From: Verrucomicrobiota bacterium
GTDB lineage: Bacteria; Verrucomicrobiota; Verrucomicrobiia; Chthoniobacterales; UBA10450
Direction: 5' to 3'
DNA: 64,000 bases
Assembly (NCBI GenBank): GCA_003218375.1
Contig: QHNH01000022.1
Span: forward strand, 1-64,000
Shown here: positions 8,036 through 34,539 of the stretch, piece by piece
Numbering within the stretch: position 1 is the stretch's first letter
How the letters are laid out: each line of letters opens with the position of its first letter
Program-made: the position numbers and the translations under genes
The notes under the pieces: generated by a model
Database searches by the model: none
The model's input: the letters and a program-made list of their open reading frames with translations, nothing else
Told to the model about the DNA's origin: nothing

Positions 8036-9070
8036 TTAGTTCGCGTATAAGATAAACGTCAACTCCTGCTGCAAACCTTCCGGCGGCAAGGTGCTCGCCA
8101 CGTCTTCGGGAATCGGCGGCAGCTTCAGCTCTTGCACCGATTGCAGACAGACGATGGCGAACGCTTCGTTCGCCGTGTTCTCGATCACCTTGAGATTATT
8201 CACGCGGCCCGAGCGATCGATCGTGAACGTCAATCGCGTCGTCCCGATGCTGATCAAATCCTGGCGTTCATGAGTGTGCTGATACCAGCGCGCGCCGACC
8301 GCGTCGTACATCTTCTTTTGGTAAAGACCGAGCGGCGTCCCCACCGCGTTCACCGACGATGGCCCGTGATTCGTGATGCTGCCGGCGATGCGCGTCTGCT
8401 GCTTTTGCGGTTGATAACTGGAGCTGGGGGCTTCCGGCTTCGGGCGCGGCGGGACCGGGGCGACGGATGGCGCGATCTCGGGCGAAGGCGACGGCTCGGT
8501 TTCATCCGGCCCTTTGATCGGCGGCGGCGGAGTTGAGGTCAGCATAGCGAGCTGTTCCGGTTCCACGGTCGCGGTGGGCGCAGGGCTCGGCCTCGATTTC
8601 GGCGGTTCGGTCGGTTTGGCTTTTGGCGGCGGACTCTGGACCGGTTTGGATTCCGGCTGCTGAGGTTCTTGTGGCTGCGGCTGCGAGCCCTGAGTCTGCA
8701 ACGAGAAATCGTGCGTCTGGAGATCACGCATCGGCAGATCTTTTCCATCCTGGCTTGGCAATGGAAGGTCGCCGGTCGGAGCCTTTTCGCTGGCCGCGAG
8801 CGAATTCGCGTTCGACTCGAAGGTTTGGTCCTTCGGCTTCTCTGCCGACTCCTTCGATTTCTCGGTGTCGACGAATTGCGGATTTTTCTCCGGCGCCGGG
8901 GCGGGAGATAAGTCCATGAGCGTCAATTCCGCCGGCGTTTCCTCCGGAGGAATCGGCGGAGTGGAAACGTTGCCGAACGCGGCCAGGGAAAATCCGACCG
9001 CGAGATGCAGAATGAGCGAGATCAGGATCGCGAACCCGAGCTTACGGCTTTGTTTCTTTTCTTCGCTCAT
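8036..9070 (-). CDS. TonB-like energy transducer protein
   Basis: A 344-residue protein with a cytoplasmic basic start, a single membrane helix (LGFAILISLILHLAVGFSLA), a very Pro/Glu/Lys-rich periplasmic spacer from about residue 45 to 235, and a C-terminal domain of TonB type (TTRLTFTIDRSGRVNNLKVIENT, then the LPPIP turn). The SxxHL pattern in the helix is typical of TonB/TolA-like proteins. It should couple ExbB/ExbD motion to an outer-membrane transporter or, in a Tol-like setting, to the envelope. The start overlaps the end of the glycosylase gene by 29 bp. No TonB-dependent receptor is in the window. Confidence 0.85.
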   Translation of the reverse strand: MSEEKKQSRKLGFAILISLILHLAVGFSLAAFGNVSTPPIPPEETPAELTLMDLSPAPAPEKNPQFVDTEKSKESAEKPKDQTFESNANSLAASEKAPTGDLPLPSQDGKDLPMRDLQTHDFSLQTQGSQPQPQEPQQPESKPVQSPPPKAKPTEPPKSRPSPAPTATVEPEQLAMLTSTPPPPIKGPDETEPSPSPEIAPSVAPVPPRPKPEAPSSSYQPQKQQTRIAGSITNHGPSSVNAVGTPLGLYQKKMYDAVGARWYQHTHERQDLISIGTTRLTFTIDRSGRVNNLKVIENTANEAFAIVCLQSVQELKLPPIPEDVASTLPPEGLQQELTFILYAN

Positions 9071-28994: not shown

Positions 28995-31037
28995 TTATTT
29001 CTGGGCGCCGAATTTTGCCAGCATTTGCTGGAACCGCGAATCCGCGCGGAGCGGATCCCAGATTGGGTCTAAGCGTAGCTCGTGGATGGTGATGCCGGAA
29101 GGCGTTTGGAGCGATCGGTCCAAAAGCGCGAACGCGGTGTCGAGGTCGCCAGACAGCATGTGGATGCGGGCGCGGCTGATCACGAGAATCGGCCCGTCGA
29201 ACGCGTCTTTCGTTTCTGGGAGTAAATCGACCGCGCGCTTGGCTTCGGCCTTTGCCTCCTCGCCGCGCCCGAGTCCGGCATAAATCAGCCCGAGCAACGC
29301 GTGGCGCGGCCCGTCCTCCGGACTTTCCTGCACGGCCTTCTCGGCTTTCACGCGCGCTTCCAGATAGCTGGCCTGCGCCCGGACCTCGTCTTTCATCGCG
29401 GCGTAGACGGTCGCCTGGAGAAATTCCTTCGAGATCGGAGCGCTCGTCTCGCCGCGCGATTTTTCGGCCGGGCTCCGCTGCAGAATCTCGATCAGCTCCT
29501 GGAATTTCCGTTCGTACATTTTCAAATTGTAGCGCGACAGCGTGATGGTTCCATTCGGATCGATGTTCTCCGGCCAGGAGCCGAGCAGGGATTGCATCGC
29601 GCGCAGGTCGCCTTTCGAATACAAATCCACGCGCGCGCGCAATTCCTGGATCGTGAAAGTTTCCGGCGCGGCTTTCACAGCGCGATCGAAAATGCGCGCA
29701 GCAGTCGCGTAATCTCGCGTCGCCAGATAATTCATGCCCATGTTCTCGAGCAGGATCGGATCTTTCGGGTCGAGCGAGACCGCCTTCGCGTAGCTGGCGC
29801 TCGATTCCTGCCATTTTCCCTGGCGCCGCTGGATCGCGGCCATCGCTCGAAAAATGCCGGGGTCGTTAGGCAGCCCTCCCCGCGCGACAGCGAACTCTCC
29901 CAGGGCCGAATCGTAATCGCGATCTACATAATAATCGACGTAGCCCATCGCGAGATGGCTCTCCGGCAGGTCGGGCTGGAGGCGGAGCGCTTCTTCCGCG
30001 GCGGCTCGCGCCTTTTGCGCCCGCGCCGGCAACGGCTCGATCGCGTAGAACATCCAGCTTTCCAGGTGCGACAGGCGGGCCTGGGCGAGCGCGAAGTTCG
30101 GATCGAGCGTGATCGCCTTCTCGTAGAGCCCTTCCACGCGCGCCAGATCGTCGTGATGGCGGTCCGGCCGGCTAAAGATTTCGTGCGCCTCCTGGTAAAG
30201 CAGATAAGCGTCGCCGTTTTGGGTGGGCTTGCGGTCGATCCGCTCCTGCTCGGCCGGCGCCAGGGTTGCCCTCAACGCTCCGGCAATTTCGCGCGCCAGC
30301 TCGCTTTGCACCGCAAACATGTCAGTCAGCTCGCGATCATAAACCTGGGCCCAAAGATGCCGGTCGTTCGATGCGTCGATGAGCTGGACGTTGATGCGGA
30401 CGCGCTTGCCTTCGCGGCGGACGCTGCCTTCGAGCACGGTCGCGACGTTCAGCGCCTTGCCGATCTCACGAATGTTGTGGGTTTGCCCGCGATACGGCAG
30501 CACTGAGGTGCGCGAGATGACTTTGAGCGCGCTGATCTTGGCGAGGTTCGTCAGGACATCGTCCTGGATGCCGTCCGCGAAATACGCGTTCGCCTGGTCG
30601 TCGCTGAAATTCGCGAACGGAAGCACTGCGATGGATTTCTCCATCTTCCGCGATGAGCCGCGGGCCAGGACGAAGTAGCCGATGACGGCCGAGATCAGCA
30701 GACCAACGACGGCCAGTGTGAAAATATTTCGGCGCCGGCCGGGCAAGGCGGGCGGACATTCCGCGACGGGTGCCGGGTCCGGGGTGCGAGTGATTCCGCC
30801 CGAGCCGAGATCGAACGCCCAAGCCAGGATCAGCGCGATCGGAAATCCCGCCAGCACCAGAATGATAACCAGGCGTGTCGACCATGCTGGCAGCGTCAGG
30901 GCGGGCAGGACCGTGGCCGCGAACTGGATGATCAACCAGCCGACGACGCCGTAGCCGGCCGCGACGCGGTAAACCTTGGGCCGGCGCAGCTCACAAAAAA
31001 AACCGTAAAGACGTGAGGATTTGAATGAATTTCCCAA
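28995..31037 (-). CDS. Membrane-anchored TolB-N/TPR protein, copy 2
   Basis: A 680-residue paralogue of copy 1. The start TTG at 31037 is taken because the family text (GFFCELRRPKVYRVAAGYGVVGW) follows closely and no ATG is available. It has the same layout: N-terminal membrane hairpin with FPIALILAWAFDLGSGGI, an additional helix, a TolB-N domain (KSIAVLPFANFSDDQANAYF), TPRs (DPNFALAQARLSHLE, PESHLAMGYV). It lies 37 bp after the LanKC-like gene stop and is separated from copy 1 by 158 bp with a hairpin. Copies 1 and 2 share a similar C-terminal half and seem to be a tandem duplication. Confidence 0.85.
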   Translation of the reverse strand: MGNSFKSSRLYGFFCELRRPKVYRVAAGYGVVGWLIIQFAATVLPALTLPAWSTRLVIILVLAGFPIALILAWAFDLGSGGITRTPDPAPVAECPPALPGRRRNIFTLAVVGLLISAVIGYFVLARGSSRKMEKSIAVLPFANFSDDQANAYFADGIQDDVLTNLAKISALKVISRTSVLPYRGQTHNIREIGKALNVATVLEGSVRREGKRVRINVQLIDASNDRHLWAQVYDRELTDMFAVQSELAREIAGALRATLAPAEQERIDRKPTQNGDAYLLYQEAHEIFSRPDRHHDDLARVEGLYEKAITLDPNFALAQARLSHLESWMFYAIEPLPARAQKARAAAEEALRLQPDLPESHLAMGYVDYYVDRDYDSALGEFAVARGGLPNDPGIFRAMAAIQRRQGKWQESSASYAKAVSLDPKDPILLENMGMNYLATRDYATAARIFDRAVKAAPETFTIQELRARVDLYSKGDLRAMQSLLGSWPENIDPNGTITLSRYNLKMYERKFQELIEILQRSPAEKSRGETSAPISKEFLQATVYAAMKDEVRAQASYLEARVKAEKAVQESPEDGPRHALLGLIYAGLGRGEEAKAEAKRAVDLLPETKDAFDGPILVISRARIHMLSGDLDTAFALLDRSLQTPSGITIHELRLDPIWDPLRADSRFQQMLAKFGAQK

Positions 31038-31074: not shown

Positions 31075-32349
31075 TTACCCAGACTTCGAACTCAGCAGGT
31101 TCTCGATCTGCTTTTGGAGTCGATCCGGACAGCGCGTCGAGCGATAAATCGCATTTCGCTCACGAGATTTTTCCGGCGGAAACTTCCCGGTCCCGAATTG
31201 GAACGCGATCACACCGAGGGCGTGACGGTCCTCAAAAACACCGGGGCGCCGGGTAAAGCTATCGTAATAATCCCGCGGCAAATAATTGGCTGAACCCCAG
31301 GTGAGGACTTCTGTTTCGTCGATGGGGCAAGCTCCTTCAAAATCGAGTAACCGAACCACGCCGCGATGGAGGAAAATGTGAGACGGCTTGCAATCGCGCC
31401 AGACCCATCCAGCTGCGTGAATCTGGCTTAACACCGGTTCGAGTCGTTCCAGAAACCTCGCCGCCCGGCGCCAGGAAATGGTCCGTGGTTGCAGTGCCCC
31501 GCGCGGAAATAATGGCCGGCCGGCGATCTTCTCCAGGACGAGATAGCAGGCTCCATTCTGGCTGAACGTCCGACGAATCTCCGGCACCGAAACGCCCGCC
31601 TTGCGCAACGAGCGGAGAACGTGCGCTTCGTGTTGCACGCGAGCATATCCGTCTGCGCCATTCCATGCCGTCTCCCCGTCCCGGCGTCCTTCTTTGATGA
31701 TTACGACACGCGCGGGTGAGACCGACAAGTCGACCGCTTCGTAAATGCCGCCCTTTCCTCGCTGAGCGAATGCTTTGTAGGGAAGATATTCGACGCCAAT
31801 CGGACCGAGTGATCGCGCTTTTTTCTGGTGTGCGCCCGACTCTCGGAAAGGGTCCTTGAGCCACCGCGGGATGGCATGGCCAGCCTCTCGCCGATCCGGA
31901 TGACGATGCCCGGCGGTGTCAAACACCACCCCTGATCTAGCCGAACTCTTGCGCGATCTTCGAAAAACCCCATAGCGATAATAAACCAGACTGTTTTTCC
32001 GATACCGGACGTCGAACGGAATTTCCGGTCCGCGCAAACCGCGCGTAACGGAGTGGAGCACGCGCGCGAGTTCGATCGCCTCGGCAGTTGAGCTCGGATA
32101 GACCGTCAGAAATTTTCCGACCTGCGAAAATTGTCCGACCCCGGAGTTAAGCCCCCCAAGCAATTCGAGGCGAGCCGGGACTTTAAACAATACGTCGCGC
32201 CCTGCGAGGATGGGTCGCACCCGGGAGAAAACCTGGTTCGCTGACAGGCGAGTAGCGGAAACATGAATTTTCCACCCTTGCGCCGGATCGCTCCTAAGGC
32301 CCGGTCGCGAATAGCACCACCTTCCGTCCGAGGCGGCCAGCTTCTTCAC
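31075..32349 (-). CDS. LanKC-like lyase-kinase protein without cyclase domain
   Basis: A 424-residue protein matching the first two domains of class III lanthipeptide synthetases. Residues 1-135 resemble the N-terminal phospho-Ser/Thr lyase region: GWKIHVSAT (25-33, with candidate catalytic Lys27 and His29), GKFLTVYP (78-85), SLVYYRYGVF (120-129). A linker contains AIPRWLKDPF as in that family. Residues 195-390 are a kinase: Lys219 in VVIIKEGR, hinge VLEKI, catalytic Asp319 in WRDCKPSHIF, and DFE (336-338) for the usual DFG. The Asn of the catalytic loop is His324. The chain ends about where the LanC-type cyclase would begin, so it could dehydrate but not ring-close. GTG start; the frame is open upstream to 32437. 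It is 46 bp after the candidate precursor gene. Confidence 0.75.
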   Translation of the reverse strand: MKKLAASDGRWCYSRPGLRSDPAQGWKIHVSATRLSANQVFSRVRPILAGRDVLFKVPARLELLGGLNSGVGQFSQVGKFLTVYPSSTAEAIELARVLHSVTRGLRGPEIPFDVRYRKNSLVYYRYGVFRRSRKSSARSGVVFDTAGHRHPDRREAGHAIPRWLKDPFRESGAHQKKARSLGPIGVEYLPYKAFAQRGKGGIYEAVDLSVSPARVVIIKEGRRDGETAWNGADGYARVQHEAHVLRSLRKAGVSVPEIRRTFSQNGACYLVLEKIAGRPLFPRGALQPRTISWRRAARFLERLEPVLSQIHAAGWVWRDCKPSHIFLHRGVVRLLDFEGACPIDETEVLTWGSANYLPRDYYDSFTRRPGVFEDRHALGVIAFQFGTGKFPPEKSRERNAIYRSTRCPDRLQKQIENLLSSKSG

Positions 32350-32395
32350 ACGACTAAGCCACTGGCGCTGGAGGCTGCGAGCGATCCTGGCGGTC

Positions 32396-32716
32396 TTAAT
32401 TTTTTTTCCGTTTTTTCGGCCAGACGTGCACCGGCGTCACGAATTCAAAGAGGTTGGTCGTGGTGCCGGTGGTATCTGTGCAGGCCCCGCTGCAACTTCC
32501 AAATCCCTTCGGCAACTTCAGCGCCTTGAGTTCTTCGGGCCGAAATTTAAAATGCGCCCGGACAATTGCTTCGGCTTTCTTATTTCCCTTCCGTGCCTTG
32601 ACTATTTCGCCACGAAAGAATTTGGCGTAGTCGGCGTCGTCGAGAATCTTTTTCACCACTTCCTTGAAGGAAAGCGGTTTGGCCGGTTTCTTGAACTGCG
32701 GTGTACCTTTAGCCAT
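32396..32716 (-). CDS. Candidate RiPP precursor-like small protein, Cys/Thr-rich C-terminus
   Basis: A 106-residue protein. Residues 1-70 are Lys-rich with amphipathic helices (FKEVVKKILDDADYAKFF, then KAEAIVRAHFKFRPEELKAL), like a long leader. Residues 71-88 form a small-residue segment GFGSCSGACTDTTGTTTN with Cys75, Cys79, Ser74, Ser76 and six Thr. The tail is LFEFVTPVHVWP and a basic KKRKKN. A Shine-Dalgarno GAGG is 7 bp before the ATG. It is directly upstream of the LanKC-like gene on the same strand. The leader resembles leader helices of other RiPP precursor groups only in a general way. A DNA- or metal-binding small protein is the main alternative. Confidence 0.6.
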   Translation of the reverse strand: MAKGTPQFKKPAKPLSFKEVVKKILDDADYAKFFRGEIVKARKGNKKAEAIVRAHFKFRPEELKALKLPKGFGSCSGACTDTTGTTTNLFEFVTPVHVWPKKRKKN

Positions 32717-32787: not shown

Positions 32788-34539
32788 TTAGCGGTGCGGG
32801 GTCATGCGCGCCACAATCTCTTGGAAGCCGGGCTTATCCCGGATCGGGTCAAGTCTCGGATCGACCCGGATCCAGACTACATCGACCGAGCGCTGCTCGA
32901 TGGCTTTGTCGAGCCAGTGAAAAGCCGCCGCGTGGTCGCCCCACGCCGTGCAAATCGTCGCCATGTCATAGGGCGAGAAAGGTCCGGATCCCGTCGTTAC
33001 TTCCTTTACGATTTGCTCGGAGCTGGTCTTGTCGCCGGCGATGGCGTGCGCATAGGCGAGCTCCAGCTTGGCGAAGCCAGTGCCGTTTGAGAGCTCGACA
33101 AATTTTTTCGCGGTTTCAACTCCCTGCGAATATTGTTGGAGATGGAGATAAGCCTGCGCGAGAACAGAAAAAGCCAGCGCGAAATTGCCGTCGATCTCAA
33201 TGGCCCGGCGACACTCCTCGTTTGCTTCCTGATAGCGGTGGGCTGCGCCAAGAATCTTTGCTTTTGACGTTCGAATGAACGGGGAGCGCGGATCGAGCTT
33301 CCCGGCGGCGTCGATTTCTCGGGACGCCTCATCCAATCGTCCAATCTCCCCAAGAGCCCGCCCGTACCAATGGTGGGCGCTGGCGCTGTTTGAGTTCAAC
33401 TCGAGCGCCCGGCGATAATCCTTTTCGGCTGCCGCCCAGTTCCACTCGAATTCCGCCAGGAGAATTCCGCGAGAAACATGTCCCTCCGCGAGATTATCGT
33501 CGATGGCCAGGGCCGAAGAGACTTCCGTCCAGGCTTTCGAAGATGCCTCTGCTGGTGAGATCACCCCCAGCTTACCCAGCAGGATATAGGAGTCCGCGAT
33601 TCCCGCATGTCCCAGCGCAAAGCTCGGGTCTTGCGCGACCGCTTGTTCGAATAGCCCGCGTCCTTCTTGAATGGAATCGGCCGTGCGCTTGTTCAACAAA
33701 TAGCGTCCGCGCAAGTAAGAGTCGTAGGCTTCCGGACTCTGGGTGGGCGACTTGGCCAATTGCGTGTTCTCGGCCAGGTGCAATTCGATTTTCAGCGCGG
33801 CGGCCACCTTCCTGGCTATGTCGCTCTGCAAGGAGAGAAGGTCTTTCTCCGTGGAGTCATAGGTTTCGGACCAAAGATGGAATCCCGTCCCAACATCGAT
33901 GAGCTGCGCTGCGACCCGCACCTTGTCCTTGCCGTGCCTGACGCTGCCTTCCAGGACATGCGTGACCTGAAGCTGCCGTCCGATGTCGCGAATGTCGCTG
34001 TTCTTGTTCTTGAACGAGAAAGCGGTGGTCCGGGCCACCACGAAAAGGCCGTGAATGTGCGCAAGCGAATCGATGATCTGTTCGGTGATCCCGTCGCTGA
34101 AATATTCCTGATCTTTGGCCGGACTGATGTCCAGAAACGGGAGAATGGCGATACTCTTTTCCGCATTCTTTATGAGGTTCGGCTCGGCCGGGTGATAATG
34201 GCGCCATGCCATGATCGCGATGACCGTGAGCAGCACGCCGATGATCACAAAATCGATCTTTCGTCCGGTGCCGCGGGCAATGGACTTTCCGGGCGCCACT
34301 TCCTCGGTGCGTTGTAAGCCTTCCGGTGTCAGCTCATAGACCCACGCAATGATCACGGCGACGGGGAAACCCAGCATCAACACCACAATGACCATTCGCG
34401 TCGCCCAATTCGGAATCTCGAAAAATGGGAAAACCTGCGTGGCAATCTGGACGAGCAACCAGCCTACGACTCCATAAGCGACCGCTACCCGGTAGACATT
34501 CCGCCGCTGCAATTCGGCGAAAAACTTTTTTAGATTCAC
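32788..34539 (-). CDS. Membrane-anchored TolB-N/TPR protein, copy 3
   Basis: A 583-residue relative of copies 1 and 2 with a more divergent TPR part. GTG start, then FFAELQRRNVYRVAVAYGVVGW, a membrane hairpin (TRMVIVVLMLGFPVAVIIAWVYELTPEG split by loops), a further helix (IDFVIIGVLLTVIAIMAW), a TolB-N domain with KSIAILPFLDISPAKDQEYF and LEGSVRHGKDKVRVAAQLID, and TPRs (DPSFALGHAGIADSYILLGK, AEGHVSRGILLAEFEW). It is promoter-proximal in the cluster, 71 bp upstream of the candidate precursor gene. The three copies probably sense or scaffold something at the inner membrane. Confidence 0.85.
   Translation of the reverse strand: MNLKKFFAELQRRNVYRVAVAYGVVGWLLVQIATQVFPFFEIPNWATRMVIVVLMLGFPVAVIIAWVYELTPEGLQRTEEVAPGKSIARGTGRKIDFVIIGVLLTVIAIMAWRHYHPAEPNLIKNAEKSIAILPFLDISPAKDQEYFSDGITEQIIDSLAHIHGLFVVARTTAFSFKNKNSDIRDIGRQLQVTHVLEGSVRHGKDKVRVAAQLIDVGTGFHLWSETYDSTEKDLLSLQSDIARKVAAALKIELHLAENTQLAKSPTQSPEAYDSYLRGRYLLNKRTADSIQEGRGLFEQAVAQDPSFALGHAGIADSYILLGKLGVISPAEASSKAWTEVSSALAIDDNLAEGHVSRGILLAEFEWNWAAAEKDYRRALELNSNSASAHHWYGRALGEIGRLDEASREIDAAGKLDPRSPFIRTSKAKILGAAHRYQEANEECRRAIEIDGNFALAFSVLAQAYLHLQQYSQGVETAKKFVELSNGTGFAKLELAYAHAIAGDKTSSEQIVKEVTTGSGPFSPYDMATICTAWGDHAAAFHWLDKAIEQRSVDVVWIRVDPRLDPIRDKPGFQEIVARMTPHR

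Follow-up and report, generated by a model that had tools for sequence, protein, structure and literature searches.

A cyclase-less lyase-kinase enzyme and its precursor-like neighbour: a predicted dehydratase-only peptide system in Verrucomicrobiota

Lanthipeptide synthetases of classes III (LanKC) and IV (LanL) combine lyase, kinase and LanC cyclase domains in a single protein, and LanL was proposed by Goto et al. (2010) to have arisen by the joining of these three parts (PMC2843593). The lyase-kinase half of the class IV synthetase VenL alone dehydrates its substrate VenA fourfold, which is a precedent for dehydration without a cyclase, and in the absence of the cyclase every Cys of the dehydrated VenA is left free (PMC2843593). 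Here, we describe a gene pair from a Verrucomicrobiota bacterium, located in a window of 64,000 nucleotides (the whole stretch of DNA that was analysed; contig QHNH01000022.1, positions 1 to 64,000, of the 52-contig metagenome assembly GCA_003218375.1). The pair encodes a lyase-kinase enzyme that lacks a LanC domain and a small, precursor-like protein. We consider it probable, from sequence comparisons, that the two form a dehydratase-only system for a ribosomally synthesised and post-translationally modified peptide (RiPP), in which dehydrobutyrine and dehydroalanine (Dhb/Dha) would be formed in the neighbouring precursor and any thioethers would arise without LanC.

Both open reading frames (ORFs) are on the reverse strand. 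The enzyme gene (31075..32349; 424 aa, GTG start) and the small gene upstream of it (32396..32716; 106 aa, ATG start) are separated by a gap of 46 bp (32350..32395), an arrangement already noted in an earlier sequence-only reading of the window, and they are probably co-transcribed. Beyond the enzyme gene, the next gene begins after only 38 bp, so there is no space for a LanC remnant, even a degraded one.

The cyclase-less enzyme and its family

The enzyme comprises a phospho-Ser/Thr lyase domain (residues 1-177; 31819..32349, reverse strand) followed by a protein kinase domain (approximately residues 188-421; 31087..31788, reverse strand). Pfam recognises RamC_N (PF25816) at residues 7-177 (E 1.5e-41) and a protein kinase at residues 214-406. 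The best NCBIfam match is to class IV LanL, with residues 6-397 on model positions 4-401 of 851 (284 bits, not above the equivalog cut-off of 650), and residues 7-384 match the first half of the model for class III LanKC (228 bits, not above its cut-off of 575). The lack of a LanC half puts both scores far below the cut-offs; the same Pfam and NCBIfam profile search found no LANC_like match in the enzyme. The sequence-only reading had held that the protein stops where LanC would begin, and its end at position 401 of the class IV model agrees with this. The lyase-like segments GWKIHVSAT, GKFLTVYP and YYRYG that it had picked out are all present, and residues 1-135, for which it had proposed a profile comparison, are clearly a LanKC/LanL lyase domain by Pfam, NCBIfam and fold match.

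Structure prediction, also proposed there, gave a two-domain model (mean predicted local distance difference test score, pLDDT, 80.7) whose nearest solved structures are CuvL and ThurKC. With CuvL, 408 residues align along chain positions 13-457 of 860 (Z 28.7, root-mean-square deviation (rmsd) 6.2 Å), and with ThurKC, 400 residues align (Z 21.8, rmsd 3.5 Å).

Mutation of ThurKC has identified K65, H67, K94, K117, D152, R163 and R191 as residues that matter for dehydration (PMC10604976). By pairwise alignment these correspond to K27, H29, K56, K79, D113, R125 and R154 of the enzyme. All are identical in 33/33 relatives apart from D113, replaced by Glu in two of them. The sole mutation-tested lyase residue not kept is ThurKC Lys108, which is Gly70 here and Ala in CuvL. 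In the kinase domain, K219, E241, D319 and the DFE motif at 336-338 (with D336) are retained. Against its nearest relative (82% identity), the enzyme gene has a non-synonymous divergence (dN) of 0.11 and a synonymous divergence (dS) of 0.56, and is therefore under purifying selection. On sequence grounds, the active sites look used.

The short form is not confined to the window. In the window's taxonomic family, RamC_N scored above cut-off in 18 of 83 genomes, and the complete frames that hold it are roughly 410-520 residues long. In a sample of 388 genomes from the phylum, it occurred only in members of that family. A weak RamC_N match of 20 bits in G017 was under the cut-off and was discarded. 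When GTDB genomes were scanned, relatives came to light in Spartobacteria/Chthoniobacterales, Opitutaceae, Acidobacteriota and Fictibacillus gelatini, and all of them lacked a LanC domain. Among 162 genomes of the acidobacterial class, RamC_N passed the cut-off in 15; the loci comprise 13 complete, cyclase-less ones (469-551 residues) and two fragments, and one genome additionally encodes a full-length synthetase of 896 residues. The alphaproteobacterial member lies on a complete plasmid of Salipiger (sp. CCB-MM3), where it is annotated only as a protein kinase.

In an unrooted maximum-likelihood tree of 38 lyase-kinase regions, a branch supported at 100/99 separates all 31 cyclase-less proteins from LanL, LanKC and the full-length synthetase of Acidobacteriota. 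By these comparisons, the predicted enzyme is a member of a separate, conserved and monophyletic cyclase-less family that spans at least four bacterial phyla (Verrucomicrobiota, Acidobacteriota, Alphaproteobacteria through the Salipiger plasmid, and Bacillota through F. gelatini). A full-length LanC domain in homologous loci had been named beforehand as one of the findings that would speak against the proposal; none was present in the enzyme's own gene in any relative of the clade. A separate LanC acting in trans was also looked for and rejected in G019, G003, G006 and F. gelatini. The well-assembled G019 and F. gelatini have no LANC_like protein anywhere in the genome, and these two show that LanC is dispensable there.

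As a separate observation, an acidobacterial genome with a cyclase-less enzyme elsewhere carries a full-length class III-like synthetase (L148, G587:C16) together with three near-identical short precursors (GG-WST..CSSD..ACSSASN.CG).

No description of a cyclase-less LanKC/LanL family was found in the open-access literature (the search did not extend to subscription articles, among them the primary ones on lipolanthines and class VI enzymes). Surveys of classes III and IV have started from LANC_like and discarded Cys-less ORFs (PMC7268733), and such a family could therefore be overlooked.

The putative precursor and its counterparts in other lineages

The small protein has a helical, leader-like part (approximately residues 15-66; 32519..32674, reverse strand), delimited by the structure model and conserved columns, and a disordered, variable, core-like tail (residues 74-106, GSCSGACTDTTGTTTN...; 32399..32497, reverse strand). 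The model places short helices at residues 17-65 (pLDDT ~80) and disorder at residues 71-106 (pLDDT ~42), the latter including the Cys/Thr segment. The earlier description of a Lys-rich, leader-like region stands as regards the leader, but the region is more than Lys-rich, as it is predicted to form a bundle of short helices. Alignment of 17 precursors from the lineage shows that the helical part is held in common while the tail varies. The only invariant pair in the tail is Cys79-Thr80 (32477..32482, reverse strand), with C79 present throughout and T80 in 16/17 (Ser in the other).

Across 58 related genomes, all homologues at E < 1e-3 directly precede the enzyme gene; a weaker, partial match (E 1.4e-3) is in G039, a genome without the enzyme. 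Searches of the small protein against Pfam and NCBIfam gave no significant match, the NHLP/Os17-type (Nif11-like) leader profile did not match it, and a fold search found no chain with Z >= 2 among the 9 compared, which is uninformative given that the model is small and half disordered. The predicted helical leader, the disordered variable tail and the adjoining enzyme gene make a convincing case for a putative RiPP precursor.

In the Acidobacteriota, the 14 precursors have a different N-terminal family from that of the window, are 104-142 aa long and are conserved beyond their motif. This motif, Cys-x3-Thr/Ser, occurs in 14/14, compared with at most 6/14 for Ser or Thr at other tail positions. 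None of 20,000 within-sequence shuffles matched the Ser/Thr column at Cys+4, although this is only a rough guide as the sequences are related. The leaders of the two lineages align in the same register at hhalign E 0.03 and probability 1.7%, and homology between them is not claimed. Two precursors are encoded in Salipiger; their cores are rich in Thr and Cys, and their leader is homologous to that of Acidobacteriota (hhalign E 9e-12). F. gelatini has one precursor, with a Thr-rich core that contains no Cys. The NHLP/Os17-type profile matches these two weakly and far under its cut-off (E 0.018 for F. gelatini, E 0.024 for Salipiger). In a sister lineage within the window's family, the precursors are of a double-glycine type (DLTPKKDARGG); most of them lack Cys, and a locus carries several. 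At one of these loci a C39-peptidase ABC exporter and a HlyD gene adjoin the enzyme.

Several details of these loci deserve mention. At Salipiger L150:8074-8480, the annotated hypothetical protein WP_066112330.1 is probably in the wrong frame, and the overlapping ORF at 8074-8358 is the second precursor, with the core ACTCNSTTVTTTTSPICTGTTTTGSG. Arrays of small genes with DLTPKKDARGG leaders surround the cyclase-less enzyme at L085 (G094), L084, L086 and L087, with up to six in L085; the L085 locus also holds a second enzyme copy (1431-2595) that is split and apparently in decay, and its exporter is of the C39-peptidase/cNMP-binding ABC kind, with the HlyD gene. Directly before the precursor gene at two acidobacterial loci is a gene for an animal-type haem peroxidase (L140:5853-7361 and L142:8589-10235), a possible tailoring enzyme.

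Around the window pair, TPR/TolB-like membrane proteins are encoded on both sides (28995-31037 and 32788-34539, both on the reverse strand), and flanking TPR proteins recur in most Chthoniobacterales relatives. Such conservation of the gene arrangement points to vertical inheritance or to a link in function. Proteins of this kind appear to be common in these genomes, judging from the several copies inside the window. In L089 (~1-980), the TPR protein and the precursor are in frame as one ORF, whereas they are separate neighbouring genes elsewhere. The precursor gene itself has a dS of 1.7-2.6 against L098:5634-5951, far above the 0.56 of the adjacent enzyme gene (a rough value, as the gene is short), which hints that precursor cassettes have been replaced or recombined.

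Proposed mechanism and rival explanations

Under the dehydratase-only proposal, the helical leader of the 106-aa precursor would recruit the enzyme, the kinase domain would phosphorylate Ser and Thr residues in the C-terminal tail, and the RamC_N lyase domain would eliminate the phosphate to give Dhb/Dha. The likeliest conserved target would be Thr80, beside the invariant Cys79, and in Acidobacteriota the Ser/Thr four residues after Cys. LanC would take no part, and the Cys thiol would either stay free or add to the dehydro residue with no cyclase dedicated to this step. The sequence-only reading had suggested that such a pair could install Dhb/Dha without an enzymatic cyclase; as a predicted function this is supported by the retained lyase and kinase residues and by a clade free of LanC.

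A number of points weigh against this proposal. Without its cyclase domain, the lyase-kinase half excised from ThurKC shows no activity (PMC10604976). The window's genome encodes one LANC_like protein, an unrelated kinase-LanC fusion on another contig, and no genes for the presumed leader cleavage and export adjoin the window pair. In addition, the putative leader of the window's lineage resembles other leaders weakly, and in this lineage the predicted metal-binding Asn of the kinase is replaced by His324. The kinase-LanC fusion (L095, G000:C10:145777-146814) is an open frame of 829 residues with kinase and LANC_like domains and without RamC_N; this unusual kinase-cyclase is absent from the sister genome G003 and might complement a cyclase-less system.

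The first alternative concerns the fate of the Cys. Instead of remaining free, it may form (methyl)lanthionine with the conserved Ser/Thr, with Cys N-terminal of the dehydro residue and the ring closed spontaneously or on the kinase-lyase surface, an outcome that we regard as possible, if tentative. That the Cys and one Ser/Thr at fixed spacing are invariant argues for the importance of the pair. The case is clearest in the acidobacterial precursors, where the +4 position is kept and its neighbours vary, and where the spacing would give the usual five-residue ring size in reverse order. The Cys is invariant in both the window and acidobacterial lineages. There is also a precedent in RosA1, whose lanthionine (Lan) ring closes non-enzymatically and in a substrate-directed manner after dehydration by kinase and lyase, in a class Va system without LanC (PMC12291118). 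Conversely, VenL without its cyclase left all VenA thiols free, a ring between the adjacent Cys and Thr of the window's lineage would be seven-membered and strained, and F. gelatini and most sister-lineage precursors have no core Cys at all.

A second alternative is that His324 (31378..31380, reverse strand), in place of the Mg-binding Asn of the catalytic loop, cripples the kinase in the window's lineage. The protein would then serve as a lyase for phosphopeptide that a different kinase supplies or else, like RosX/KinH-type kinase homologues, as a pseudokinase that provides a scaffold or closes rings. The sequence-only reading had noted this residue together with K219 and D319, all correctly, and took it to weaken a simple interpretation. 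His324 is a fixed, lineage-wide substitution in the predicted catalytic loop, found in 12/12 complete lineage members against Asn in all 20 other sequences, and inactive kinase homologues contribute to thioether formation elsewhere (PMC12291118). However, K219, E241, D319 and D336 are kept, the gene is under purifying selection and His is in principle able to bind metal. The doubt is lowered by the lineage-wide fixation and the otherwise intact catalytic residues, yet not removed, and we consider a crippled kinase unlikely.

We judge it similarly improbable that there is no secreted peptide, and that the small protein is instead an intracellular one whose Thr is irreversibly altered by phospho-lyase signalling, perhaps tied to the flanking TPR/TolB-like proteins. 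The lack of an adjoining transporter or protease gene at the window pair would fit this, as would the TPR flanks of most relatives, the single TPR-precursor ORF of L089, and the length and wider conservation of the acidobacterial precursors. On the other hand, the tails are variable, the cores are Thr/Cys-rich in Salipiger and Thr-rich in F. gelatini, several precursor genes can occur per cluster, one sister enzyme adjoins a C39/ABC/HlyD exporter, and TPR proteins of this kind seem to be common in these genomes.

Finally, a LanKC or LanL broken by metagenome assembly, a thought raised by the 52 contigs of the window's assembly, can be dismissed, as the short form is conserved within one clade across 18 family genomes, 13 complete acidobacterial loci, the complete Salipiger plasmid and the Fictibacillus genome.

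A dehydratase-only system, if real, would matter in several ways. A natural, LanC-free, single-protein dehydratase would be useful for placing Dha/Dhb in peptides, and the C-T and C-x3-T/S motifs yield concrete ring predictions. As a monophyletic group, the lyase-kinase clade is what would be expected either of an intermediate in the origin of LanL or of its mirror image, a single ancient loss; because the tree is unrooted, an early stand-alone form and a single loss are indistinguishable. More speculatively, and with some doubt, the family may represent a separate RiPP class of at least four phyla. Its lyase-kinase would then be a stand-alone RamC_N enzyme rather than a decayed LanKC, and possibly the pre-fusion ancestor of LanL/LanKC. 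It would install Dhb/Dha in precursors under the guidance of their leaders, and thioether rings of reverse order would form without LanC between the invariant Cys and the Ser/Thr at +1 or +4.

Comparison with known systems

The enzyme is neither a LanKC nor a LanL, because the LanC domain that defines both was tested for and not found. Its lyase-kinase half is like that of class IV LanL, and VenL minus its cyclase is still an active dehydratase (PMC2843593). However, the enzyme has no zinc LanC domain, belongs to a separate clade and scores below the equivalog cut-off, and its precursor has a larger helical leader in place of the short one of LanL systems. With class III LanKC (CuvL, ThurKC, PneKC), it has in common the fold of the first ~460 residues, the lyase catalytic set and the kinase DFE. 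It differs in having no LanC-like domain, which ThurKC needs even to dehydrate, and in having Gly70 at the position of ThurKC Lys108.

Two further enzymes can be set beside it by description only. The lipolanthine enzyme MicKC works with the decarboxylase MicD, forming avionin. It is counted as class III, and a genome-mining rule cited in PMC13289728 lists micKC apart from LANC_like + Pkinase. This suggests that LanC is missing or unrecognised in MicKC, which may be another class III case without a recognised LanC. The class VI LanKCb of streptococci is described as having shortened domains around the kinase (PMC10676316) and is reported to retain a truncated cyclase and a truncated lyase, whereas the present enzyme has a complete lyase and no cyclase.

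Class Va systems (LanK + LanY + LanD + LanX, e.g. rosin) also dehydrate by kinase and lyase, have no LanC in the cluster and can close rings non-enzymatically (PMC12291118). In class V, the kinase (APH-type LanK) and the lyase (HopA1-type LanY) are separate proteins, whereas here a single fused RamC_N-Pkinase protein has Pkinase as its best kinase profile; the Cys decarboxylase of class Va was not seen beside the enzyme. The best reading of these comparisons is that the predicted enzyme works in the manner of class Va dehydration, but with the parts of classes III and IV.
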